Origin: a virus
Direction: 5' to 3' (one strand)
DNA length: 24,422 bases
IMG/VR virus record: IMGVR_UViG_3300045928_000030
Coordinates: 1-24,422 of that record
The notes under the pieces were generated by a model. That model saw nothing but the letters and a program-made list of their open reading frames with translations. It was not told the DNA's origin and made no database searches. Position numbers and translations under genes: made by a program. Shown here piece by piece: positions 1 through 24,422 of this stretch. Each line of letters starts with the position of its first letter. The stretch's first letter is position 1.

Positions 1-127
1 AGATGTTCCATGAGGCGCTTCGTGTCGACGGGGAGGGCCTCGAGGTAGCGGCGCAGTGCCGACGACACGATGTGGACTTGCGTCGTGTCGTCGGCGCGCG
101 CGGCGAGCGTTACCTGGTGCCAGAGGT
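1..127. repeat. Terminal direct repeat, left copy (assembly overlap of a circular genome)
   Basis: The first 127 bases are identical, base for base, to the last 127 (24296-24422). A gene on the minus strand is completed only when the two ends are joined. The length equals a k-mer size widely used as the maximum in de Bruijn graph assemblers. The repeat is therefore best read as the overlap left by assembling a circle, or a circularly permuted genome, and not as a biological terminal repeat. Confidence 0.9.
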
Positions 128-191
128 CGCGATCGATCGCGACGTTGAGCTGATGTTTCTCCGGGCGGGCCGGCGCCTTGCGTCGTACCAT
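1..191 (-). CDS. Ribbon-helix-helix DNA-binding protein, 5' part (gene crosses the circle join)
   Basis: Read on the minus strand from ATG at 191, this frame runs off the left edge and continues at 24295 to a TAA at 24258-24256. The complete product is 76 residues. A basic N-terminus (MVRRKAPARPEK) is followed by a short strand (HQLNVAID) and two helices (DLWHQVTLAARADD, then TQVHIVSSALRRYLEAL), the usual order of a CopG/Arc-type RHH domain. The C-terminal tail is charged and Lys/Arg rich. AGGA lies 11-14 bases upstream of the ATG. It is the only minus-strand gene, divergent from the early operon, with a cluster of inverted GTAG/CTAC repeats between them. By position it could be the lysogeny regulator or a repressor of the early operon; that role is inference. 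A toxin-less antitoxin-like protein is an alternative. Confidence 0.75.
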   Translation of the reverse strand, partial: MVRRKAPARPEKHQLNVAIDRDLWHQVTLAARADDTTQVHIVSSALRRYLEALPVDTKRLMEH

Positions 192-3407: not shown

Positions 3408-3617
3408 ATGCGGGACGTGGCGTGTCACATCTGCGGGGCGACGCTCGCCGATGGCCCGCTCTTCGGCTGCTTCCGCTGCGGCAAGGTGCAGGTCTGCCTG
3501 ACGCACGTCGTCGCCTGGGTCGTGCTCGGCACCTGGCTGCGGCGGCCGCTCTGCGGGCGCTGTACGTCGGCGGTCGCGCATGGGCCGCTGGCCGACCTCC
3601 TGCGAGCGCGCGCCTGA
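3408..3617 (+). CDS. Zinc-finger protein with several CxxC pairs
   Basis: 69 residues from ATG 3408 (GGTGAG seven bases upstream). In-frame starts further back would overlap the methyltransferase gene, so 3408 is preferred. Cys pairs CHIC, CFRC and CGRC plus CLTH give seven to eight possible metal ligands, enough for two zinc sites. A hydrophobic WVVLGTW stretch lies between. Its stop shares its A with the next gene's ATG (TGATG). Function unknown; it precedes the HNH endonuclease and may work with it or the terminase. Confidence 0.6.
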   Translation: MRDVACHICGATLADGPLFGCFRCGKVQVCLTHVVAWVVLGTWLRRPLCGRCTSAVAHGPLADLLRARA

Positions 3618-3949
3618 TGCCGACCGCCGCCTTGAAACCGTGCGCGGTGCCAAGCTGCCCGGCTCTCGTGTCGGGCGAGCGCTGCCCCGACCACGCCCGG
3701 CAGCTCGAGCAGGGCCGGCCGCACCGCCACGCTCGGCGCTGGTACAACACGGTGCGCTGGAAACGCTTGCGAGTACAAGTATTGGCCGACGCGCTCCACA
3801 CTTGCGCTCGCTGCGGCCAGGTCGCCGCCGCGCTCGAGGTCGACCACGACGTACCACACCGCGGCGACCCGGTCCTCTTCTGGGATCGGGCGAATCTCCA
3901 GGCCTTGTGCGCGTCGTGTCACGCGCAAAAGACGAATGCCGGCGAGTGA
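3617..3949 (+). CDS. HNH endonuclease (packaging-associated type)
   Basis: 110 residues. An N-terminal Cys cluster (CAVPSC, then CPDH) precedes the HNH core: CARC, LEVDHDVPHRG, then NLQALCASCHAQKT, the ββα-metal layout with two CxxC zinc knuckles and the DH dyad. In many long-tailed phages an HNH protein encoded next to the terminase stimulates terminase cleavage of DNA. The position, two small ORFs before the small terminase, fits that role, which is inferred from family and context. Confidence 0.85.
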   Translation: MPTAALKPCAVPSCPALVSGERCPDHARQLEQGRPHRHARRWYNTVRWKRLRVQVLADALHTCARCGQVAAALEVDHDVPHRGDPVLFWDRANLQALCASCHAQKTNAGE

Positions 3950-4028
3950 TTGGACGATCGTCGTACTCGGATTCGTCGCGGTCGCGTTGACGATCGCCAT
4001 TGCGATCGGGCGACGAGGGGGGGCGTGA
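3936..4028 (+). CDS. Small single-pass membrane peptide (30 residues)
   Basis: An ATG within the end of the HNH gene opens a 30-residue frame: MPASDW, a hydrophobic stretch of about 20 residues (TIVVLGFVAVALTIAIAIG), then a basic GRRGGA tail. This is an ideal N-out, C-in single transmembrane helix. The ribosome site is weak, so translation may depend on coupling with the HNH gene. Role unknown; a small lysis or signalling membrane peptide is possible. Confidence 0.4.
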   Translation: MPASDWTIVVLGFVAVALTIAIAIGRRGGA

Positions 4029-4144: not shown

Positions 4145-4624
4145 TTGGCCGGCGTCAAAGGGTTGAGTGGCGGCCGGCGTCCCGGGGCCGGCAGAAAGCC
4201 GCTGGACGCGCGGACGCGGGACATCACCGGAAACGCGGGGCATCGCGGCCGGTTGCTCCCGTATCCCGGCCTGGATGCGCCGCCGGTGCCGCCGCCGTCT
4301 CAGCCGTTTCCGTGCCCCGACACGTGGAGCCCCGCGGAGCGCGGCGTCTGGGCCGAGCTCGCGCCGCATGCCTTCGCCAACCGGACCCTGACGCCGGCGA
4401 CGCTCCTCGCCTTCCGCGTGCTCGTCCGCAACGTGCTGCTCGAGCGCACCTTGGCCGAAAGCCCCATGTTCCAGGGCGGCCCGAATCACCGCGGCCTCCT
4501 GATGCGCGTCGACGCCGAGCTGCTCCGCTTCAACCTGGCGCCGTGCGGCAAACCGCTCACCGAGCCGGAACAAGCCGCGGTGCCGGTCAACCCGCTCGCC
4601 CGATTCCTGGCGCCCCGCCGATGA
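4145..4624 (+). CDS. terS: Terminase small subunit, P27 family
   Basis: 159 residues from a TTG start; a second TTG at 4163 is possible, as neither has a clear ribosome site. The N-terminus GGRRPGAGRKPL is the basic Gly-Arg motif typical of small terminases. The body (GNAGHRGRLLP, PDTWSPAERGVWAELAP, LTPATLLAFRVLVRNVLLE, MRVDAELLRFNLAPCGK) follows the P27-family layout, where TerS multimers recognise phage DNA and regulate the large subunit. The stop overlaps the next ATG (ATGA). The large subunit is ~700 bases downstream, separated by small ORFs, a little further than usual. Confidence 0.75.
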   Translation: MAGVKGLSGGRRPGAGRKPLDARTRDITGNAGHRGRLLPYPGLDAPPVPPPSQPFPCPDTWSPAERGVWAELAPHAFANRTLTPATLLAFRVLVRNVLLERTLAESPMFQGGPNHRGLLMRVDAELLRFNLAPCGKPLTEPEQAAVPVNPLARFLAPRR

Positions 4625-4782
4625 GTGTCTATCGCACGTTTCGTACTCAGAGCCTTGACCGGCAGCGGCAACTCGCTCTGGCGCATCACTGTCGCCTCGC
4701 GTTCGAGACGACACATCCCCGGTTTGCCTGGATCGAAGGCGGGCACGGCGTGATTCTCACCGTAAATTCGGGCTATGAGTGA
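4621..4782 (+). CDS. Small hypothetical protein (53 residues)
   Basis: Starts with an ATGA overlap on the small terminase stop, so probably coupled. The sequence is mixed and soluble looking: basic in the first half (RTFRTQSLDRQRQ), then FETTHPRFAWIEGGHGVILTVNSGYE, which could form β-strands. No family recognised. Confidence 0.5.
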   Translation: MSVYRTFRTQSLDRQRQLALAHHCRLAFETTHPRFAWIEGGHGVILTVNSGYE

Positions 4783-14548: not shown

Positions 14549-14652
14549 TGGGCTGGACCTGGGACGACCTCCAGGCGTTGCCGTCTGACGTCTACGACAT
14601 CCTGATCGACGAACTGGAACGGGAACAACGGGACGCACACCGTGGCGCTTAG
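14506..14652 (+). CDS. Tail assembly chaperone, frameshift extension (gpT-like)
   Basis: Read in the -1 frame after the slip, this adds 48 residues (WRGRIVNDLAVCRVMGWTWDDLQALPSDVYDILIDELEREQRD...), so the fusion would be 185 residues. The LAVCRVMGWT segment before the only internal ATG (14548) looks like a conserved part of such extensions. This favours frameshifting over independent initiation, although TAATG at 14546-14550 could also permit re-initiation of a 34-residue product. Its end overlaps the tape measure's GTG start by 11 bases. Confidence 0.7.
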   Translation, partial: WRGRIVNDLAVCRVMGWTWDDLQALPSDVYDILIDELEREQRDAHRGA

Positions 14653-16597
14653 CGCGAAATTCGTCGCCGATTTCGCCTCCTTTTACGACGCCGTGTCGCG
14701 CGCGGAAGGGAGTTTGCGATCGTTCGAAACCGGCGCGTCCAAGGTCGAATCGTCCCTCAATCGCATGGTCGATGCGTTTTCGGGACGCAAGGTAATCCAG
14801 GACGCGACCTTGATGGCGGAAGCCGTCGAACGGATCGGCGGCGTGTCCAAACTTACCCAGGACGAACTCGTCCGGTTACAGGGAACGGTCGGGACCGCGA
14901 TCGAGAAAATGAAGGCCATGGGGATCGAAGTCCCCCCGGGCATTCAGAAGATCGCGACCGAACTGGAAGGCGTCGACGCCGCCGTCGATACCACGGCGAA
15001 AAAATTCGAGGGATTGGCGACGGCGTTGACGGTCGCGAACGCCGCCCAGGAAATCCGCAATTTCGCCGGGGACGTCAAGGCGGCGGCGGACGTGTTCGTC
15101 GGGGCGTATGCGGAAGAGGAGGCGGCGGTCAAGTCGTTGGGCGTCGCCATGCAGGCGCAAGGGACCGCGACCGACGCGACGATCGAGGCGTACCGCGCCC
15201 TCGCGACGCAATTCCAAAACACGACGGCGTTTTCCGACGACGCGATTATCGCGATGGAAGCGTTGTTCGTGCAGGTCGGCGACGTCGGTCCGCAACAAAT
15301 GGAGGCGGCGCTCACGGCGGCGACGAACCTGTCCGCCGGACTCGGCATCGAACTCGAGGCGGCGACGATGTTGGTCGCGAAAGCGTTCGCGACCGGCGGC
15401 GAAAATCTCGGACGCCTCAAGACAATCCTGGGCGACACCGTCCCGGAAGGCGCGTCCATGGCCGAAGTCATGGAGGCGATCAACGACAAGTTCGGCGGCC
15501 AGGCGGCGGCGCAGCTCGACACCTACAACGGCCGCATGGCGAACCTCGGGAATCAGATGGGGGACGTACAGGAAAAGGTCGGACAGTTGATCGTCCAGGG
15601 GTTGACGCCGTTGCTCAACCTATTCGGCCAACTCCCGCAACCTGTCCAGACGGTCGCGATCGCCTTCACGGCGATCGGCGTCGCCCTCGCGCCCCTGGCG
15701 GTGAGCTTTGCGTCCCTGGTCTCCGCGATCGGGCCGTTGGTCGCGTTGTTGGGTCCGGCGGGGCTCGGCCTGACGTTGTCCGGCGTCGCGATCGCCCTGG
15801 GCGCGGTCGGCGCCGCGATCGCCGCCGCGATCATCATCTGGAAAAACTGGGACGCGATCGTCGCCGGATCGAAAGCGATTTGGGAAGGACTCAAAACCAC
15901 ATTCAACACCGTCGCGACCGCGATCACGGACACGGCGCAACGGATTTACGACGGCGTCAAAACGTGGCTCGTCGATCGCCTCAACGGGCTCGTCGCGTCG
16001 ATTCAATCGACCGTTACCAGCATGATCGATCCGTTCAAACGGATGTATGACGCCGTCGTCGGACATTCGTACGTGCCGGACACGATCGACGGGATCGAAT
16101 CGCAATTCGGGCGCCTCGACTCCGTCATGGTGGGACCGGCGCAGGCGGCGACGTCGGCGACGTCCCAGGCGTTTGCGGGCATGGCGTCCAACGTCGTCGC
16201 GTCCGTCGAGCAGGCGACGCAGGCGTTGACGTCGTTGACGCGGACCGAATCGACGATCGGGACGGGGCAAATGCAAGGCGGCGCGGCGTCGGGCGGCGGC
16301 GGCGGCGGCGGGAAGGGACTCCAGATCCCCGTCCCCGCCAATTTCAATTGGTCGCAGGCGTACCGCGACGCCGGGTATTTCGTCCACGATTCGCCGTTTC
16401 TGGGCTTGAGCCAAGCAACCGACAAACGGAATTTCGGCGCGGCGTCTCTGGGATTCCTGCCGCGCGAATACGCCGTCACGGCGAATACGTACATCTACGG
16501 CATGACGGACACGTCGGACGGGTTCCGCGCCCTGACGACCGCCGTCAAAAACAACGTGATGGACGGCGTCAAAAAGGGCCGGAAAATTTCGGCGTGA
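14642..16597 (+). CDS. Tape measure protein
   Basis: 651 residues from GTG 14642. Helical throughout: N-terminal FVADFASFYDAVSRAEGSLRSFE, long Ala/Glu/Lys helices, and a mid-region FAGDVKAAADVFVGAYAEEEAAVKSLGVAM seen in tape measures. A hydrophobic stretch runs from ~334 to 400 (VQTVAIAFTAIGVALAPLAV ... AAIAAAIIIWKNW). MYDAVVGHSYVPDTIDGIESQFGRL near 485-505 is a common tape-measure motif, and a Gly-rich linker lies near 555. It sets tail length. At about 1.5 Å per residue the tail would be near 100 nm, an estimate. The short length suits the small genome. TTG is a frequent Leu codon here, unlike in the head genes. Confidence 0.9.
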   Translation: MALSAKFVADFASFYDAVSRAEGSLRSFETGASKVESSLNRMVDAFSGRKVIQDATLMAEAVERIGGVSKLTQDELVRLQGTVGTAIEKMKAMGIEVPPGIQKIATELEGVDAAVDTTAKKFEGLATALTVANAAQEIRNFAGDVKAAADVFVGAYAEEEAAVKSLGVAMQAQGTATDATIEAYRALATQFQNTTAFSDDAIIAMEALFVQVGDVGPQQMEAALTAATNLSAGLGIELEAATMLVAKAFATGGENLGRLKTILGDTVPEGASMAEVMEAINDKFGGQAAAQLDTYNGRMANLGNQMGDVQEKVGQLIVQGLTPLLNLFGQLPQPVQTVAIAFTAIGVALAPLAVSFASLVSAIGPLVALLGPAGLGLTLSGVAIALGAVGAAIAAAIIIWKNWDAIVAGSKAIWEGLKTTFNTVATAITDTAQRIYDGVKTWLVDRLNGLVASIQSTVTSMIDPFKRMYDAVVGHSYVPDTIDGIESQFGRLDSVMVGPAQAATSATSQAFAGMASNVVASVEQATQALTSLTRTESTIGTGQMQGGAASGGGGGGGKGLQIPVPANFNWSQAYRDAGYFVHDSPFLGLSQATDKRNFGAASLGFLPREYAVTANTYIYGMTDTSDGFRALTTAVKNNVMDGVKKGRKISA

Positions 16598-16603
16598 TCC
16601 GCG

Positions 16604-19600
16604 ATGCCGTTGCTCTATGCCGACGTCGTCCGCGCCGATGGGGCGATCCACTATTGGCGCCTGAACGAATCCGGCGGCACCGTTGCCGCCGACACGATCG
16701 GCACCGTCCCCGGCACGATTAGCGCCGCCGGCGTCACGTTCGGACAGGCGGGCGCGTTGGCGGACGGGACGACCGCGATCCTGTTCGATGGCAGCGTCGG
16801 CAAGGTCGAAACGGCGGCGGCGATCGCCGCGTTGTCCGCCGCCATCACGGTGGAATGTTGGGTCAAGTTTACCGGGACGCCGACCGCGATTCCGTTCGTC
16901 TCCACGCGCGGCGCCGACGCGGGCGGGTCCGCGAACGCGTTCGAAGTCGGATGGGGCGGCGGACAGATCCGGATTTCGATCGCGTCGGGATCGCCGAACC
17001 TGATCACCTGGACGGCGGCGATCAACAACGGCGCATGGCATCACGTCGTCTGGACGTCGGACAAGGTCACGACGAACGTCTATATCGACGGCGCCGTGAT
17101 TCGCACGATCGGGCAGACGTGGACGGCGATCTCGAATCACAAGGCGCGGATCGCCTATGACGCCTCCGCGTTTTCGCGTCTCGCCGGATCGGTGGACGAA
17201 GTCGCGATCTACCCGACCGCCCTGTCGGCGGCGCAAGTCGCGAATCATTACGCCGCCCGGACGGTGTCGTCGTTCGTCGGGCGACCGGCGATTCTGAATC
17301 GGGCGCGCCTCAATAATTTCCGCCTGAATTACATTCCCGCCGCCCTGCAACCGATCCGGTCGTCGCGGGTCATGGTGTTTCTCAATGGCGTCCTGGTCCG
17401 CTACCGGCACAACTCGATCACGATCAACGACAAACTCCGCGACGAACCGAATACCTGCTCGATCACGTTCATGCCGCCGACCGTGCCGCAACCGCAACAG
17501 GGCGTGCGGATCGTGGTCAATGCCAACGCGCCGACGTTGCTATTTGCGGGCGCCCTCGAGACGGTCAACGAAACCTACGAGAACAACAAACGGATCGTGT
17601 TCTATCCCTCGACCGCCCAGGACGATACGCCGCGCGCGAACCGCCGGATCCCCCTGGCCTATTACGACAATATTTCCGCGTCCACGATCGCCAGCGTCCT
17701 GATCGGGCGGTTCGCGCCGGGGTTTACCGCGAACCATATTCAGGCGGACTTGCCCGCGATCACGGTCCGATTCGACGGGTCCGAAGCGAACCTCAATGGG
17801 TGTCTTCGGCAAATGGCGAAATTGGTCGGGGGGTACTTCTATTTTGAAGATCGCGATCTGCATTTCTTCCAGGACGAACCGACCGAAATCCCGGACCCGA
17901 TTGACACGACGCCGGGGCGGTTCCTGAACAATCCGCCGATCATCGAAACCCGCGACGATTCGCAAATCCGGACGCGCGTCTACGGCATGGGACATCAGGA
18001 GGCGACGCTCAGCGAAGTCCTGGTCGGCGACACGATCATCCCGATCGACGACGCGACGTTGTTCGTTCCGACCGGCGGCAAAATCATTTCCGCATGGCAA
18101 GTCCTGGGGTATACCGGCGTCCAACTCGGCGGCGGCGGCGGACTGATCGGTCCAGGCGCCGCCCCCGGCGCCGCGCCGGTCGCGAACCTGTTGCCCGGGA
18201 CCGGCGTCGAATCCGGGAGTCACGACTACGCGACGACGTTCCTCACGGCGACGGGGGAATCCGTCGCCGGTCCGCGCGTGACGATCGTGGTGGGCAATCT
18301 CGCCGCGCCCGGGATCGCGCCGACGATCGCGAGTCTGTCGGCGGGCGGCAGCATGAACGTCGGCGTCTTCGACTACGCCGTGACGCTCGTGTCGGCGACG
18401 GGCGAAACGACGCCGGGACCGATCAGTACCCAAGTCGCGACCGGCGGTCCGGCGGCGGCGCCGCCGCAATCGGCGCCGGCCCTGAGTGGCCCGATCGCCG
18501 GGGGCAGTGTGACGCCGGGGGCGCATCAATACGGCGTCACGTTCACGGGGCCGTACGGCGAAACCGGGATCGGTCCGGCGAGTCAAGCGATCGTCGCCCA
18601 GGGACCAATGGGCGCGCCGCCGCCGCCGACCGGCACATTTGACAAAGGCGGACAGGAACTCGGACCGGGGACGACGTACCAGTACCAAACGACGTACGTC
18701 ACGGCGACAGGGGAAACGACGGCGTCCGGATCGTCCGCGCCCGTGACGATCGATCCCGTCCCCAATGGCGGCAGTCCGCCCGTCGCGCCGACGCCGACCG
18801 TCGCCACGGGCGGCGCGATTCCGACCGGGTATTTTTACGAATACGCCGTGTCATTTCTGACGGCGAAAGGCGAAACCGATTTCGTCTGGAATCTGACGAT
18901 GACGGCGCGCCTGGACCCGCCGAACAATGCGTTCCTGGTCACGCAACTCCCGACGTCGTCGGACCCGCGCGTGATCGGGCGGAAACTCTATCGCCGCAAC
19001 GCCTCATTAGGAACGGGCGGACTGGTCGCGACCATCAACGACAATTCGACGACCCAGTACACGGACACGGCGGCGGCGGTCGGCGGACTCCCGGCGGGCA
19101 ATACGACCGCCTGGGGACGCGTCGTCCTGTCGAATATCTATCCCGGCGGACCGGCGACGACGGCGCGCCGGATTTACCGGACGCAACCAGGACAACCCCC
19201 GGGGACGTTCTACCTCCTGGCGACGATCAACAACAACACGGCAACCAGCTACACCGACACGACGCCGAATGTTTCGGCGGGGCAAAACCCGCCCGGGACG
19301 GACACGACCGGCGCGCGGACGATCCAGGTGTCGGGGATCGCGACCGGACCGGCCGGGACGACGGGACGCAACCTGTACCGGACGCCCGCCAACTCCTCGA
19401 CGTTGAAACTATTGGGGACGATCGCGAACAACTCGACGACGTCCCTCACGGATACCCTGGACGATTCGGCGTTGGGCGCGACCGCGCCGTCCGGCGCGAC
19501 CCTCAACACGGTCAACCTGTCCGGGATCGCCCTGGGCGGACCGATGGTCCTACAACGCAAACTCTACCGGCGGTTCAACGGCGCGGGCCCGTTCAAATTA

Positions 19601-20581
19601 GTCACGACGATCGGCAACAACACGTCCACGACCTACCAGGACACGGCGAGTAACGCGGCGTTAGGCGCCGCCGCGCCCACGACGAACACGGCGGCGGCGG
19701 GACAAGTCGCCGTGTCGCAAATTCCGATCGGCGGCGCAGGCGTGACGGGACGCAAACTGTATCGAACGGCGGTCGGCAGTCAACAACTCCGGTTCGTCGC
19801 GACCCTGGGGGACAACGTCGCGTCCACCTATACCGACGTTACGTCGGACTTCAACCTGGGCGCGAATGCGCCGGTCAACGATACGTCCGGACTTCAACAA
19901 CCGGACGGGCAAGTGAGCGCAGGCGCGACGTCGTTGATCGTCGCGGGGATTAGCGCGTTTAGCGCGACGGGCGGATGGGCGATCCTGGGGAACGGGCAAC
20001 AGATCATCCGGTATACCGGCGTGTCGGCGACGTCGTTGACGGGCATTCCGGCCAGTGGAACGGGATCCCTGAAAGCCACGGTCAGTTACAACGCCAACAT
20101 CACCGCCGCGCCCGCCTTAACCGGCGTGTCCGGGTTGGCGATGACTCTCGCGCCCAACCTCGGACTCCTGAAAGGGGATCCGATCGCGATCTGGATCCAA
20201 CGGGACGACGTCGCCGCGCAAAACGAACTGGCGGCGCGGGAAGGCGGCGGGGATGGGATCATCGAACACCGGATCGTCGATCAACGGCGCGGCGAACCGT
20301 CGTTGCAGGCGTTGTGCGACGCGGACCTCGCCCAGTATGCGCGGTCCCTGGTGACCGTGACCTATGCCTGCCGGGACGTCAAGACGAAAAGCGGGAAACC
20401 GATCGTGATCGATATCCCGTCGCCGTTGATCCAGGAAACGCTCACGATTCAAGACGTCGTGATCACGGAATTGGATATCGTCCCCGGACTGCAACCGAAA
20501 TTTGCTGTCACGGCATCGTCGATCCGGTTCACCCTGGAAGACTTGTTGCGGCGCATGGCGTCCACACTGGAAGGAATCTAA
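16604..20581 (+). CDS. Giant tail hub protein: LamG domain, hub domain and two sets of tandem repeats
   Basis: 1325 residues, the largest gene. Residues 1-~222 form a LamG/concanavalin-like sheet domain (HYWRLNESGGTVAADTIG, ITVECWVKF, WHHVVWTSD, AGSVDEVAIYPTALSAAQV) that may bind sugars. Residues ~230-510 look like a phage tail hub domain (VMVFLNGVLVRY, EPNTCSITFMPP, LFAGALETV, YFYFEDRDLHFF). At ~530-790 come five β-sandwich-like repeats ending TATGET..GP. At ~790-1097 come five repeats of the form R.LYR...ATI.NN.TT.YTDT. Residues ~1100-1325 return to hub-like sequence (GATSLIVAGISAF, RYTGVSATSL, then VVITELDIVPGLQPKFAV). It likely combines the distal-tail and tail-tip roles and contacts the host surface. 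The domain calls are by eye. Confidence 0.75.
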   Translation: MPLLYADVVRADGAIHYWRLNESGGTVAADTIGTVPGTISAAGVTFGQAGALADGTTAILFDGSVGKVETAAAIAALSAAITVECWVKFTGTPTAIPFVSTRGADAGGSANAFEVGWGGGQIRISIASGSPNLITWTAAINNGAWHHVVWTSDKVTTNVYIDGAVIRTIGQTWTAISNHKARIAYDASAFSRLAGSVDEVAIYPTALSAAQVANHYAARTVSSFVGRPAILNRARLNNFRLNYIPAALQPIRSSRVMVFLNGVLVRYRHNSITINDKLRDEPNTCSITFMPPTVPQPQQGVRIVVNANAPTLLFAGALETVNETYENNKRIVFYPSTAQDDTPRANRRIPLAYYDNISASTIASVLIGRFAPGFTANHIQADLPAITVRFDGSEANLNGCLRQMAKLVGGYFYFEDRDLHFFQDEPTEIPDPIDTTPGRFLNNPPIIETRDDSQIRTRVYGMGHQEATLSEVLVGDTIIPIDDATLFVPTGGKIISAWQVLGYTGVQLGGGGGLIGPGAAPGAAPVANLLPGTGVESGSHDYATTFLTATGESVAGPRVTIVVGNLAAPGIAPTIASLSAGGSMNVGVFDYAVTLVSATGETTPGPISTQVATGGPAAAPPQSAPALSGPIAGGSVTPGAHQYGVTFTGPYGETGIGPASQAIVAQGPMGAPPPPTGTFDKGGQELGPGTTYQYQTTYVTATGETTASGSSAPVTIDPVPNGGSPPVAPTPTVATGGAIPTGYFYEYAVSFLTAKGETDFVWNLTMTARLDPPNNAFLVTQLPTSSDPRVIGRKLYRRNASLGTGGLVATINDNSTTQYTDTAAAVGGLPAGNTTAWGRVVLSNIYPGGPATTARRIYRTQPGQPPGTFYLLATINNNTATSYTDTTPNVSAGQNPPGTDTTGARTIQVSGIATGPAGTTGRNLYRTPANSSTLKLLGTIANNSTTSLTDTLDDSALGATAPSGATLNTVNLSGIALGGPMVLQRKLYRRFNGAGPFKLVTTIGNNTSTTYQDTASNAALGAAAPTTNTAAAGQVAVSQIPIGGAGVTGRKLYRTAVGSQQLRFVATLGDNVASTYTDVTSDFNLGANAPVNDTSGLQQPDGQVSAGATSLIVAGISAFSATGGWAILGNGQQIIRYTGVSATSLTGIPASGTGSLKATVSYNANITAAPALTGVSGLAMTLAPNLGLLKGDPIAIWIQRDDVAAQNELAAREGGGDGIIEHRIVDQRRGEPSLQALCDADLAQYARSLVTVTYACRDVKTKSGKPIVIDIPSPLIQETLTIQDVVITELDIVPGLQPKFAVTASSIRFTLEDLLRRMASTLEGI

Positions 20582-20585
20582 GACC

Positions 20586-21563
20586 ATGGCGATCAATCGC
20601 GCGCCGTTTAATGCCCTGATCGACGACGACGGATCGAACACGGTCGGGACCGTCTGGAACAAGGCGCAGATCGCCTATGTGATCCTGGATCCCGTAGACG
20701 CGGCGTTGGGCGTCGTGTCGGCGAATCTGACGTTCCAAACCAACGGGTCCATCGTCCGGAATACGCTGGACGGGGCGGACTCCGGATGGGTGTCGATCGG
20801 CGGCGGCGGCGACGTGGGGGCGTCGCGTGGGGGCTATCTCCAAGTCCTCGGCAATGAATCGGGGATCGGGGGGAGCGCGCGCGTGTTTCTGGGCTCGGCC
20901 GCCGGGAGTCATTTTGTCGTCGTGGGATCCGCCGGAACCGAAGTCTTCCGCATCAATGGCGGCGGCGACATCGTCACGAGTACGACCGGGACGACGATCG
21001 CGAGCCTGAATTCCACGGCCGTGAGCGGCGGGTTCCTCGCGTTTCAACGAAGCGGGACGGCCGTCGCGTGGATCGGCAACGCCCAACCGTTTGGGATTAG
21101 TGGCGCGGCCCTGGCCGATTTCGCCGTCTATGTCGCCAACGCCGGAGCCGCCCGGTTGTTCCTCGAGGCGTACAACGGATCAATCAACTCCACCACGATC
21201 TACAACGCCACCTCCGCCGCCGCCGTGAATATGACGGTGGAAAGTTCCGGACGCCTGTGTCGCTCCACGTCGTCGCGGCGGTACAAGACGGATATTCAAC
21301 CCCTCGACGCGTGGCGGTGGTTCCTGGATCTCGAGGCGGTCGAATTCGCCGACCGCGCGACGCCGGACGGGCGGAAGTGGATCGGGTTCACGGCGGAAGA
21401 CGTCGCCGCGCGCGGACCGGTCCGGAACGGCGTCCCGGTCTGTGCCGGACTGACGGCGGACGGCGCGCCGGATGACGTCACGTACGCGAACCTCACGGCG
21501 GTAATTCAACTCGGTTTAAAAGACCTCGATCGCCGCCTCGCGGCATTGGAGTGTGTCCGATGA
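20586..21563 (+). CDS. Tail fibre with C-terminal S74 intramolecular chaperone
   Basis: 325 residues from ATG 20586 (AAGGA ten bases upstream). The N-terminus MAINRAPFNALIDDDGSNTVGTVWNKAQI would join the tail. The middle is β-repeat rich (FLGSAAGSHFVVVGSAG, FRINGGGDIV, LAFQRSGTAVAWIG), as in trimeric fibres. The C-terminus carries the S74 peptidase pattern SSRRYKTDIQPL (Ser229/Ser230, Lys234), then FTAEDVAARGP and ANLTAVIQLGLKDLDRRLAALE. S74 domains guide trimer folding and then cut themselves off before a conserved Ser. It is probably the receptor-binding fibre. Confidence 0.85.
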   Translation: MAINRAPFNALIDDDGSNTVGTVWNKAQIAYVILDPVDAALGVVSANLTFQTNGSIVRNTLDGADSGWVSIGGGGDVGASRGGYLQVLGNESGIGGSARVFLGSAAGSHFVVVGSAGTEVFRINGGGDIVTSTTGTTIASLNSTAVSGGFLAFQRSGTAVAWIGNAQPFGISGAALADFAVYVANAGAARLFLEAYNGSINSTTIYNATSAAAVNMTVESSGRLCRSTSSRRYKTDIQPLDAWRWFLDLEAVEFADRATPDGRKWIGFTAEDVAARGPVRNGVPVCAGLTADGAPDDVTYANLTAVIQLGLKDLDRRLAALECVR

Positions 21564-21892
21564 TGTCCGAAGGATTTTTGCAAATGACCCTGGCGCAGGA
21601 TCGGAATTTTCTTACGCGGTTGTCGTACCTCCTGGTACAACAGGCGCGCGTCGTCATGGCCGAAGCGCCGACGACGCCAGGGCACACCCAACGCGCCACC
21701 TACGCGACGTTGGTGATCAACAACCCGTCCGGCATGACCGGCCCCGCCGCCGTGACGATTGTCGGCGGACCGAACGTGATCGGGACGGTCACCTTAGAAG
21801 ATTCCGGACCCGTCACGACCGCGACCGACGCCGCGTTGACGTCCCAGATCGCGACCTACTGGGACGCCCTGGCGGGCGTGGTGTCGGCATGA
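21560..21892 (+). CDS. Tail-module protein of unknown function
   Basis: 110 residues from ATG 21560, overlapping the fibre stop (ATGA) with GGAG nine bases ahead; ATG 21563 is an equal alternative. Helical N-terminus (FLQMTLAQDRNFLTRLSYLLVQQARVVMAE), then β-rich ATYATLVINNP and VTIVGGPNVIGTV, and ATYWDALAGVVSA. The pattern is familiar from phage genomes near the tail fibre but has no known role that I can name. Confidence 0.6.
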   Translation: MMSEGFLQMTLAQDRNFLTRLSYLLVQQARVVMAEAPTTPGHTQRATYATLVINNPSGMTGPAAVTIVGGPNVIGTVTLEDSGPVTTATDAALTSQIATYWDALAGVVSA

Positions 21893-22092
21893 TGAAAGTG
21901 ACGATCGAGGACCTCGTCCAGGTCATCGGGGAACAGACGGTGGAGCTCGCCATGTTGCGGCGCGAAGTCGCGCGGGTCACGGCCCAGACCGCGCCGGCGC
22001 CAGGCCCCGCGCCGCTGGCGCGTGTCTCGAGCGGCCAGGCGGCGCCGCTGCGCGCGGTCGATACCGGCGGCGTGCCGATCGACGAATCCTGA
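21889..22092 (+). CDS. Small coiled-coil protein
   Basis: 67 residues, ATGA overlap with the preceding stop. Residues 4-30 (TIEDLVQVIGEQTVELAMLRREVARV) form an amphipathic coiled coil with Ile/Val/Leu heptads. The rest is Ala/Pro rich. Codon choice reverts to the head-gene style (CTC Leu). It sits directly before the holin candidate and could belong to a lysis unit; a spanin is unlikely, as no signal or membrane segment is seen. Confidence 0.55.
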   Translation: MMKVTIEDLVQVIGEQTVELAMLRREVARVTAQTAPAPGPAPLARVSSGQAAPLRAVDTGGVPIDES

Positions 22093-22094
22093 CC

Positions 22095-22101
22095 AAGGAG
22101 G
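22095..22101 (+). promoter_or_regulatory. Perfect Shine-Dalgarno sequence of the holin candidate
   Basis: AAGGAGG, seven bases before the ATG at 22109; the strongest ribosome site I see in the window. It fixes the start of a very short gene and suggests high expression. Confidence 0.8.
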
Positions 22102-22108
22102 ACACCTG

Positions 22109-22255
22109 ATGATTGGACTACTCGGCCTCGCGACGCTCCTGCTCCTGATTGCCTTCGCGCTGACGATCGGCGCCGCGCTCGGGCGCGCGCCGCTCTGGGT
22201 CGCGGTGCTGCTCGTCGCGCTCGCGCAGCTCCTCACGCTCAGCGGCGTCCGTTGA
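22109..22255 (+). CDS. Two-helix membrane protein, candidate holin
   Basis: 48 residues. Transmembrane helix 1 is residues ~2-24 (IGLLGLATLLLLIAFALTIG), a short GRAP turn follows, and helix 2 is residues ~29-46 (LWVAVLLVALAQLLTLSG). There is almost no polar sequence outside the membrane. A two-helix hairpin protein at the end of the late operon, with a perfect ribosome site, fits a small class II-type holin or pinholin. It is shorter than most holins, lacks the usual charged tail, and no endolysin gene is recognised next to it. A membrane protein of the lysogen is an alternative. Confidence 0.6.
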   Translation: MIGLLGLATLLLLIAFALTIGAALGRAPLWVAVLLVALAQLLTLSGVR

Positions 22256-22261
22256 CCGCCG

Positions 22262-22292
22262 GCGCCGTTACGGTGAAATGCCGTAGCGGCGC
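22262..22292 (+). terminator. Strong hairpin after the late operon (terminator-like, no T run)
   Basis: GCGCCGTTACGG (22262-22273) pairs with CCGTAGCGGCGC (22281-22292): twelve pairs including one G-U, around a seven-base loop. It begins seven bases after the last late gene's stop. No T tract follows, so it may be a Rho-independent-like block, an mRNA 3' stabiliser, or part of the attachment-site architecture. Confidence 0.5.
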
Positions 22293-22329
22293 TGCCTCCG
22301 ATCCGGATGGGCGATGAGGATGGGTAACG

Positions 22330-22375: not shown

Positions 22376-22421
22376 CCTCCGGAGCTGGGGGCCACAGGTT
22401 CGAATCCTGTCGGGCGCGCCA
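22376..22421 (+). other. attP core: 3' part of tRNA-Arg(CCG)
   Basis: The block contains an anticodon loop CTCCGGA (anticodon CCG at 22379-22381), the T arm ACAGG-TTCGAAT-CCTGT, acceptor strand CGGGCGC, discriminator G and CCA ending at 22421. The 5' half of a tRNA is absent, and the bases left of the loop do not pair well, so identity with the host gene probably begins near the anticodon. The integrase gene lies just to the right. On integration the phage would restore the 3' end of the host tRNA-Arg(CCG) gene. Confidence 0.85.
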
Positions 22422-22496: not shown

Positions 22497-22526
22497 TTGA
22501 CGATTTGCTCAATGTTTCGACATACT
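22497..22526 (+). promoter_or_regulatory. Sigma70-like promoter of the integrase gene
   Basis: TTGACG (22497-22502, five of six) and CATACT (22521-22526, four of six) separated by 18 bases, between attP and the integrase ATG at 22599. Transcription would start near 22533, after the potential upstream ATG/GTG codons at 22458-22510, which supports 22599 as the start. TTTCG (22515-22519) and CGAAA (22531-22535) form an inverted repeat across the -10 that could be an operator. Confidence 0.45.
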
Positions 22527-22598: not shown

Positions 22599-23900
22599 AT
22601 GAAACCGGCGCGCGCGAAATGGGTACGGATTGCGGAGAACATCTATCGGAAAGGCGATCGGCTGCGGGTCGTCGCGTCGGTCGGCACGGCCCCGCATCGG
22701 TTGACCGACGAGGCGTACTATCAGATTGACGACGCGCGGCCGCTGAAACAGCAGATCAAGGAAGCGCAAGTCTGGCAGCACGACCGGCGCGGTGAGCTCC
22801 GGCAGGAAGTCCCGACCGCGGCGAAGCGCGGCACACTGCGCGCGGCGGCCGCCGACCTCCTCGCCGAGCTCCCGGTGCCGACGTCGAAACAGGACCGCAC
22901 GAAAGAGAACCTCGAGGACCAGCTCACCGCCTGGCTCATCGCGCCGATCGTCGTCGCCGATCGGCGGCGCGGCGTCTGGGGCGATATGCCGGCCTCGCGC
23001 ATGACGGCGCACGACGTCAAGGTCTTGCGCGCGCGCTGGCAGAGCGACGGCGTCGCGAACGGCACGATCAATCATCGCGTGCGCGCGCTCCGCAAGCTGT
23101 ACGAATCGCTCGACACGACCCAGGGCCGCACCGGCTACGACCCGACGCGACACCTCGCGCGATTACCGCCGGCGCCGGAAGAGGACCGCTCGATTCCGTT
23201 ACCGCTCCGGCGCCGCATCATTGCCGGCATGCCCGATCAGGGCCGGCCGCCGCGTGGGGCGCGCTGGAAGGACGGGACGTTTCCGACCGTGAGCGGCGCG
23301 AAGCTCCGTCTCGCCGTCATCTGCGAGACGGGCCTGCCGTACGCGCAACTAATGAAACACACGGCGTTGACCGTCGACCTCAAGGGCACGAATCCCAAGC
23401 ATCCGCCAGGGCCGCACATGTACAACGCGCCGCGCGAAAAGGGCGAGGGCGTACGGGCCGGCTGGATACCGCTGACGCCTGAAGCCGTCACGACCTGGCG
23501 CGCCTTCGCGGCCGGGAATCTGTGGGGCTATTTCTCCCGCTCGGCGGTGCGGAAGGCTTTTCTCAAGGCCGTCGCGCGCGAACGGAAGGCGTGCAAGACC
23601 GACGCGGCGCGGCATGCCTTCGATGAGTTGATGCCGCCGAACCCGAAACCGTACGACCTCCGACACAGTTTCGCGACCGACGTATTCGAGGCGACCGGCC
23701 GCGAGCAGGGGACCGGCCTGCTCCTGCAACACTCCGACGAACGGATGATGAAACGCTACACGGTCGGCGCGCGCGCCAAGGTGATGGGCGATACGTTGCG
23801 GCTCTACCTCGAGGCAACGACGCCGCCTGCCCCGCCGACGGTGACAACACCGAAACCGGCACGCCCGGCGCTGCGGGCCGTGCGCGGCGGCAAACGGTAA
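22599..23900 (+). CDS. int: Tyrosine recombinase / phage integrase
   Basis: 433 residues from ATG 22599 (AAGGA upstream). Residues 7-30 (KWVRIAENIYRKGDRLRVVASVG) look like an arm-type DNA-binding domain, ~80-190 are the core-binding helices, and the catalytic domain follows. There Tyr352-x-x-Arg355 (YDLRHSFAT) is box II, His378 (LLLQHSDE) is the second His/Trp position, and Tyr387 (KRYTVG) is the nucleophile. The first catalytic Arg, normally in TGLR, is Pro247 (ETGLPYAQLMK). Lys281 or the Arg at 279 may supply nearby charge. It would recombine the tRNA-Arg core (22376-22421) with the host gene. The C-terminus has a Pro/Lys-rich tail. Confidence 0.9.
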   Translation: MKPARAKWVRIAENIYRKGDRLRVVASVGTAPHRLTDEAYYQIDDARPLKQQIKEAQVWQHDRRGELRQEVPTAAKRGTLRAAAADLLAELPVPTSKQDRTKENLEDQLTAWLIAPIVVADRRRGVWGDMPASRMTAHDVKVLRARWQSDGVANGTINHRVRALRKLYESLDTTQGRTGYDPTRHLARLPPAPEEDRSIPLPLRRRIIAGMPDQGRPPRGARWKDGTFPTVSGAKLRLAVICETGLPYAQLMKHTALTVDLKGTNPKHPPGPHMYNAPREKGEGVRAGWIPLTPEAVTTWRAFAAGNLWGYFSRSAVRKAFLKAVARERKACKTDAARHAFDELMPPNPKPYDLRHSFATDVFEATGREQGTGLLLQHSDERMMKRYTVGARAKVMGDTLRLYLEATTPPAPPTVTTPKPARPALRAVRGGKR

Positions 23901-23917: not shown

Positions 23918-24259
23918 ATGATCATTGCGCGTATCATCGGCGCCGTGTTCCTCCTCGGTGCGTTCGGATGCGGCGGAGGATCGGCCTCGACGCCGGTCCC
24001 GACGCCGGAACAACGCGCCGCCGCGCAAGGGTTCGTCGAGGGCTGGATCGCGGTCGGACACGTCGTCGGCTACGACTGCGCGGCTGGCGACGTCCGCATC
24101 AACCCGGCGTCCTGGGCGTCGTTTGACGCCGCCTTCCGGGAACGGGTCGCGATCGCGTTCCGGGTCGTCTGCGACGGTCCGTCCGTCGTCGCGATCCTGG
24201 ACGCGCGGACCGGCCGCCGCCTTGCCCACGTCGGGCCGATCGGCTACATCGTCGATTAG
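23918..24259 (+). CDS. Putative phage-encoded lipoprotein
   Basis: 113 residues with GAAAGG before the ATG. Residues 1-18 (MIIARIIGAVFLLGAFGC) form a signal peptide ending in a lipobox-like AFGC, so Cys18 could be lipidated; a short Gly/Ser/Pro linker follows. The mature part (EQRAAAQGFVEGWIAVGHVVGYDC ... VRINPASW ... AIAFRVVCDG ... VVAILDARTGRRLAHVGPIGY) has Cys54 and Cys85, a possible disulfide. It lies between integrase and the RHH gene, the usual place for lysogenic-conversion cargo. It may alter the lysogen's envelope, for example in superinfection exclusion, but that is inference. Its stop overlaps the convergent RHH stop by four bases. Confidence 0.65.
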   Translation: MIIARIIGAVFLLGAFGCGGGSASTPVPTPEQRAAAQGFVEGWIAVGHVVGYDCAAGDVRINPASWASFDAAFRERVAIAFRVVCDGPSVVAILDARTGRRLAHVGPIGYIVD

Positions 24260-24422
24260 CCTTTCCGTTCCAACGCCTTTTTCCGCGGCGCGTCCAGATG
24301 TTCCATGAGGCGCTTCGTGTCGACGGGGAGGGCCTCGAGGTAGCGGCGCAGTGCCGACGACACGATGTGGACTTGCGTCGTGTCGTCGGCGCGCGCGGCG
24401 AGCGTTACCTGGTGCCAGAGGT
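24256..24422 (-). CDS. Ribbon-helix-helix protein, 3' part (continues at the left end)
   Basis: The same gene as the minus-strand frame at 191-1. This copy runs from the right edge through the duplicated 127 bases and ends at TAA 24258-24256, giving the C-terminus (LMEHLDAPRKKALERKG). The start codon is absent here because it lies at 191 after the circle is closed. It is convergent with the lipoprotein gene, overlapping by four bases, with no hairpin between. Confidence 0.75.
   Translation of the reverse strand, partial: LWHQVTLAARADDTTQVHIVSSALRRYLEALPVDTKRLMEHLDAPRKKALERKG
24296..24422. repeat. Terminal direct repeat, right copy (assembly overlap)
   Basis: Identical to 1-127. One copy should be removed when the genome is written as a circle of about 24,295 bp. 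Confidence 0.9.

Follow-up and report, generated by a model that had tools for sequence, protein, structure and literature searches.

A conserved two-helix membrane microprotein family found at variable gene positions in phages, with a member closing the late operon of a small soil phage without a recognisable endolysin

In its size, its predicted hairpin of two transmembrane (TM) segments, its encoding by a small phage gene and the place of that gene at the end of a late operon, the 48-aa peptide described here resembles the Class II holins. Holin genes are often found last in the late operon; holins usually show little conservation, and a strongly conserved turn motif is unusual among them. 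Their C-terminus is usually hydrophilic and highly charged, and functional two-TM holins that are unlinked to endolysins exist (PMC9327680). In contrast to Class II holins, the family to which the 48-aa peptide belongs, termed PLWVA here, comes without a linked or recognisable endolysin and without a charged C-terminus, has a conserved turn motif, is placed early in relatives and has a chromosomal copy.

Other described systems share part of this picture. DUF5670/Lmo0937 peptides (PF18919) are likewise two-TM hairpins of ~45-50 aa and lie at the late-operon end in two relatives of the phage (G002 and G004), but they have no detectable sequence relationship to PLWVA: the 48-aa peptide gave no Pfam match to PF18919 at E values up to 1, and hhalign of a PLWVA peptide against a phage DUF5670 member returned a probability of 0.5%. 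The amurins of ssRNA phages and Microviridae are, as here, small TM peptides of genomes without a recognisable endolysin; the present carrier, however, is a tailed dsDNA temperate phage, and no homology to amurins was shown. In ssRNA and ssDNA phages, small lysis proteins of the membrane block a step of peptidoglycan synthesis or export; a single-gene lysis system of this kind is not known to us from any tailed dsDNA phage. Morons and superinfection-exclusion proteins resemble PLWVA in being mobile, position-independent, single-copy membrane peptides, but the present gene lacks a promoter-like site just before it and is seemingly read from the late operon.

The window, that is the whole stretch of DNA analysed, is IMG/VR record IMGVR_UViG_3300045928_000030 (24,422 bp). 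Its first 127 nt recur exactly at its end, and because of this terminal repeat we regard the phage genome as complete and circular, at ~24.3 kb. It belongs to a small temperate tailed phage from soil. When genes were called with a codon model trained on long genes, almost all fell on one strand, in an order running from excisionase/HTH-like and replication genes, a ParB-Dam methyltransferase, an HNH gene and the terminase, through a fused prohead protease-capsid, portal, connectors, tail tube, tape measure, hub and S74 fibre, to three small late genes, the attachment-site (att) core and the integrase (Table 1). Phage_integrase was matched in a pooled Pfam set that included the window proteins, and the integrase has a promoter-like site at 22497-22526. 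The tape-measure scan returned distant relatives only, and Rfam families had no match in the phage genome. The host is probably an acidobacterium, because the att core is identical to part of the tRNA-Arg of Acidobacteriota genome G068 and has near matches elsewhere: cores within 3 mismatches occurred in 5 of 297 Acidobacteriota and 0 of 150 Pseudomonadota, and the reversed pattern was never seen.

Table 1. Features of the window, followed by two-TM peptides of related loci
Feature	Position	Strand	Remarks
30-aa hydrophobic ORF	3936..4028	+	SD 2/6; overlaps HNH gene
Tape measure protein	14642..16597	+	PHROGs tape measure families, down to 9e-16
1325-aa tail hub/fibre protein, N-terminal LamG	16604..20581	+	Pfam PF13385, 1.9e-21
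Tail fibre-like protein, C-terminal Peptidase_S74 chaperone	20586..21563	+	Pfam PF13884, 1e-4
110-aa late gene	21560..21892	+	Homologue at same place in G002, 39%
67-aa gene, N-terminal half Glu/Arg-rich, no TM segment	21889..22092	+	Gene calling
Shine-Dalgarno (SD) AGGAGG	22096..22101	+	7 nt before ATG of 48-aa gene
48-aa two-TM hairpin peptide (PLWVA family), last late-operon gene	22109..22255	+	MIGLLGLATLLLLIAFALTIGAALGRAPLWVAVLLVALAQLLTLSGVR
15-bp stem-loop	22260..22294	+	4 nt past stop of 48-aa gene; terminator-like, no T run
Attachment-site core, 3' half of tRNA-Arg(CCG)	22376..22421	+	46/46 identity to Acidobacteriota genome G068
Tyrosine integrase	22599..23900	+	Frame open from 22458; 30-32% identity to G001/G002 integrases
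113-aa putative lipoprotein, lipobox GAFGC	23918..24259	+	Between integrase and genome end
Phage-borne DUF5670/Lmo0937 peptides	L054:9016-9165 (G002), L056:1639-1794 (G004)		Late-operon end
Third two-TM peptide, 42 aa	L199:5290-5418		Also in L200 and L201; directly after hub gene

The range 21889-22300, which the initial annotation had singled out, contains the 67-aa gene, the 48-aa gene and the 15-bp hairpin. The 48-aa gene is co-directional with the late operon and has its own ribosome site, which had been described as the best in the genome; indeed, no other called gene has a 6/6 Shine-Dalgarno match. The coding score per codon of the 48-aa gene is likewise the highest in the phage genome. 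The terminator-like hairpin that follows it folds at -33 kcal/mol (z -3.5, with 0 of 200 shuffles equally good) and was not called by a scan for T-run terminators. Of the promoter and terminator that a moron-type gene would bring along, the hairpin could supply the latter, whereas directly before the gene no promoter-like site was found in the window, and for that reason the gene is probably not an autonomous moron there. Two TM segments are found in the peptide, the sole small two-TM protein encoded by the phage genome, and its AlphaFold2 model has helices at residues 4-23 and 29-44 (mean pLDDT 84), which agrees with the earlier description of a two-helix membrane peptide closing the late operon. 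Its C-terminus, ...LTLSGVR, bears one charge, and family members mostly end in a single R. The 30-aa ORF that had been put forward as a second membrane peptide for lysis is probably not a gene; it was rejected as a lysis partner, having no good ribosome site and no homologue in any fetched locus.

A family profile seeded from the window peptide and three relatives located the PLWVA family in 28 IMG/VR loci. Members are ~44-48 aa long, most have good SDs, and each profile-searched record that carries the peptide has exactly one copy. An alignment of 23 members has a mean column identity of 59%, with invariant A15, A27, P28, W30 and A32 and the motif [GN][KR]APLWVAVLL; the predicted topology of the family would be a first helix, a short [GN][KR]AP turn and a second helix starting LWVAV. 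Pairwise dN/dS has a median of ~0.4, and dS is high. No Pfam or PHROGs model matches the 48-aa peptide. As judged from these sequences, the PLWVA peptides are a real, conserved and uncatalogued microprotein family, new here. Short hydrophobic ORFs do arise by chance in GC-rich DNA, and the window holds 231 ORFs of at least 28 aa; that the 48-aa gene is a chance ORF or an annotation artefact is nevertheless refuted by its conservation and has a negligible probability, since relatives occur in so many loci, at so constant a length, mostly with good SDs and with such a dN/dS. A tblastn search with the 48-aa peptide against INPHARED phages and PLSDB plasmids returned nothing, which is not evidence of absence because the low-complexity filter of BLAST may hide such peptides.

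The family reaches beyond one phage lineage, and its gene has no fixed place. Carriers G027, G029, G033, G040, L087 and L091 (the last with a GC content of 47%) have hardly more than a few other genes, if any, in common with the phages of the window lineage, which points to horizontal transfer. According to heuristic gene calls in the relatives, the PLWVA gene lies at the late-operon end in the window, G030, G032, G035 and G038, and at or near that end, before a strand switch or the integrase, in the window, G030, G031, G032, G035 and G039. In the closest relatives, G001 (TerL 88%), G002 and G004, it is found in the early, pre-terminase operon, where it adjoins small zinc-finger-like genes; G002 and G004 have it packed tightly among early genes and carry the DUF5670 peptide at the late end. 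Elsewhere it is flanked by portal and connector genes (L174, which has the same capsid-portal arrangement), stands ahead of HNH and terminase (L084) or is found in the head region (L095). The gene hops from one operon position to another, and from phage to phage where these are otherwise unrelated, and, as expected of a moron, varies in position among relatives without fixed neighbours.

The late-operon slot is filled by other peptides in some relatives. The DUF5670 copy of G002 matches PF18919 at 4e-10, and DUF5670 is common on chromosomes of the order inferred for the host, where 32 of 60 genomes sampled have it. Loci L199-L201, which share the hub, encode the 42-aa two-TM peptide directly after the homologous tail hub gene; tblastn with the L199 copy found nothing, although the low-complexity filter may hide such peptides. 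Neither this peptide nor the DUF5670 peptide of G002 has detectable homology to the PLWVA family. With its position unfixed and the slot taken by other two-TM peptides, position alone therefore does not make the 48-aa peptide a holin.

Several small membrane proteins were observed beside these genes. In G002 a 26-aa TM peptide, which recurs in L101, follows the DUF5670 gene, and in L201 a 79-aa lipoprotein lies further downstream of the 42-aa peptide. Two terminase relatives that have no PLWVA peptide, G011 and G006, encode small two-TM peptides between TerL and portal (L065:12389-12541 and L059:16568-16714, respectively). Putative lipoproteins of 60-73 aa (L090:7768-7989, L094:4391-4612, L093:8339-8521 and L103:8413-8598) are encoded in the late region, in several phages next to the peptide gene or close to it, and are possible o-spanin-like partners. 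Related-looking proteins of 110-122 aa with a TM segment and a coiled coil, near tail-tip genes in G030 (24534-24902) and G035 (4441-4773), have an i-spanin-like topology.

A chromosomal PLWVA peptide was found in 1 of 162 genomes of the order to which G068 belongs (G516, MRWSLSSILVLLAFVLSILSAVAAVPLWVAVMLLALAHLVGEHGFIRLRT). Its gene has a 6/6 SD and is surrounded by metabolic genes, outside any prophage and away from phage genes; domestication of a phage gene could explain it. At this locus (L183, G516:C26:23604-24470) it stands between an 88-aa gene and a DUF6496 gene. The PLWVA profile matched 0 of 396 sampled Acidobacteriota genomes and 0 of 349 Pseudomonadota genomes, and a query with the chromosomal copy gave no further convincing copies, the best others (E 0.02) lying inside longer ORFs.

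The initial annotation had seen no lytic enzyme anywhere in the genome, and profile searches bear this out. Pfam scans covered nearly all called window proteins of at least 53 aa, singly or pooled, with ORFs 3-191 (minus), 3408-3617 (plus) and 24256-24420 (minus) left out, and PHROGs searches covered most of the unknown ones; a lytic domain was found neither among the Pfam matches listed, pooled sets included, nor with PHROGs. The products of the genes at 21560, 21889 and 23918, which had been named as possible sites of a hidden lytic fold, showed no lytic domain in either library; those of 21889 and 23918 had no significant match there, and the 113-aa putative lipoprotein had no homologue in the fetched loci. 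Five unknown or large window proteins, including the 110-aa protein, the tape measure and the hub/fibre protein, had no meaningful match among PDB sequences, and the latter two likewise showed no lytic domain. Because the largest window proteins without assignment measure only ~150, 113, 110 and 109 aa, a canonical enzyme would find little room other than in the tail proteins.

The same holds for related phages. Relatives were scanned in pooled Pfam sets of proteins within set length limits (100-420 aa in some scans), with 25 families listed for each set; unlisted families in sets A4, A6 and A7 were single-member and weak, and those of A5, which were more numerous, were partly rescanned in reduced form, with no lytic match. 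No standard endolysin family appeared among the matches listed for 14 peptide-bearing records, the window included. Nor did Pfam detect an endolysin, among the matches listed, in G002, G032, G035 and G029, which are complete as judged by exact terminal repeats, or in G001, whose ends overlap by 205 nt at 98.5%. Four terminase (TerL) relatives without the peptide also lacked a standard endolysin among the matches listed in the same Pfam scan, with one DUF5675 match between them, and so the missing endolysin is not specific to peptide carriers. It partly reflects the poor profile coverage of soil phages and depends on the profile libraries.

What does the peptide do? We give about an even chance to its being a mobile inner-membrane peptide that modifies host membrane function, and not a lysis timing protein. 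Made late from the tail operon, it would insert into the host inner membrane, where its conserved turn, together with one face of helix 2, would modify membrane function, for example by superinfection exclusion or by modulating a membrane complex, in the manner of morons carried by phages and of small membrane proteins of the host; the phage would then lyse its host with an enzyme beyond the recognition of current profiles. A membrane modulator is favoured because of the conserved turn, the chromosomal copy, the host-type DUF5670 peptide in the late slot (a domain so frequent in the sampled host-order genomes) and the variable position within one lineage; the 28 loci, the single copy per record, the identity of 59% kept across little-related phages and the one charge at the C-terminus also count for it. 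Against it count the place of the gene, which is the last late gene and the usual site of a holin, and the lack of a promoter-like site, as well as the chromosomal copy being single (1 of 162 genomes of the order, 0 of 396 in the phylum sample). Moreover, host lysis is needed and the genome offers no other membrane candidate for it, the peptide being its only small two-TM protein, and the non-homologous two-TM peptides in the late slot of L199-L201 and G002 are typical of holin replacement. These last observations fit a holin-like role, in which the hairpin would oligomerise late and open or depolarise the inner membrane, in concert with a muralytic protein too diverged for recognition, which might be part of a tail protein or the product of a small uncharacterised gene. 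The perfect SD and terminator-like hairpin of a gene ending the late operon, and the copies in G030, G031, G032, G035 and G039 at or near the late end before a strand switch, are consistent with such a role, as is the precedent of functional two-TM holins unlinked to endolysins (PMC9327680). We nonetheless consider it rather unlikely: relatives place the gene in the early operon and the head module, and since timing matters for a holin, such interchange of early, head and late positions weakens this interpretation, as do the chromosomal copy, the strongly conserved turn motif, the lack of a charged tail at the C-terminus and the lack of an endolysin family, among the matches listed, in any scanned peptide-bearing record. 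Of the holin candidate and lysis puzzle proposed initially, the terminal two-TM peptide and the lack of a recognisable endolysin thus stand, while the variable position, the chromosomal copy and the DUF5670 substitute tell against the holin assignment.

A more radical proposal is that the peptide dispenses with an endolysin by acting on its own against some step in the synthesis or export of peptidoglycan. It would suit a TM peptide that is small and conserved and has a specific face under conservation, and a complete genome that, like G001, G002, G032, G029 and G035, shows no recognisable endolysin among the matches listed. We hold it to be highly improbable, however, since the missing endolysin was judged from profile searches, in soil phages that are poorly characterised, and extends, among the matches listed, to the four TerL relatives that have no such peptide, and since an early-operon copy would kill the host before virion assembly. 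Even taken jointly, a holin-like or sole lysis protein remains somewhat doubtful, and we rank the mobile host-membrane peptide above both.

Acidobacteriota are a major soil phylum; to our knowledge few of their phages have been isolated, and their mode of lysis is largely obscure. The complete 24-kb genome described here offers a hidden lysis function only a small number of genes. We see a slim chance that a lineage of tailed dsDNA phages of Acidobacteriota lyses its hosts free of endolysin, through a two-TM peptide of ~45 aa acting alone or with a small outer-membrane lipoprotein; this peptide might then be a PLWVA member or one that replaces it functionally in its slot. That a microprotein as strongly conserved as PLWVA moves among unrelated phages, and has a copy on one host chromosome or more, suggests a specific target in the membrane.
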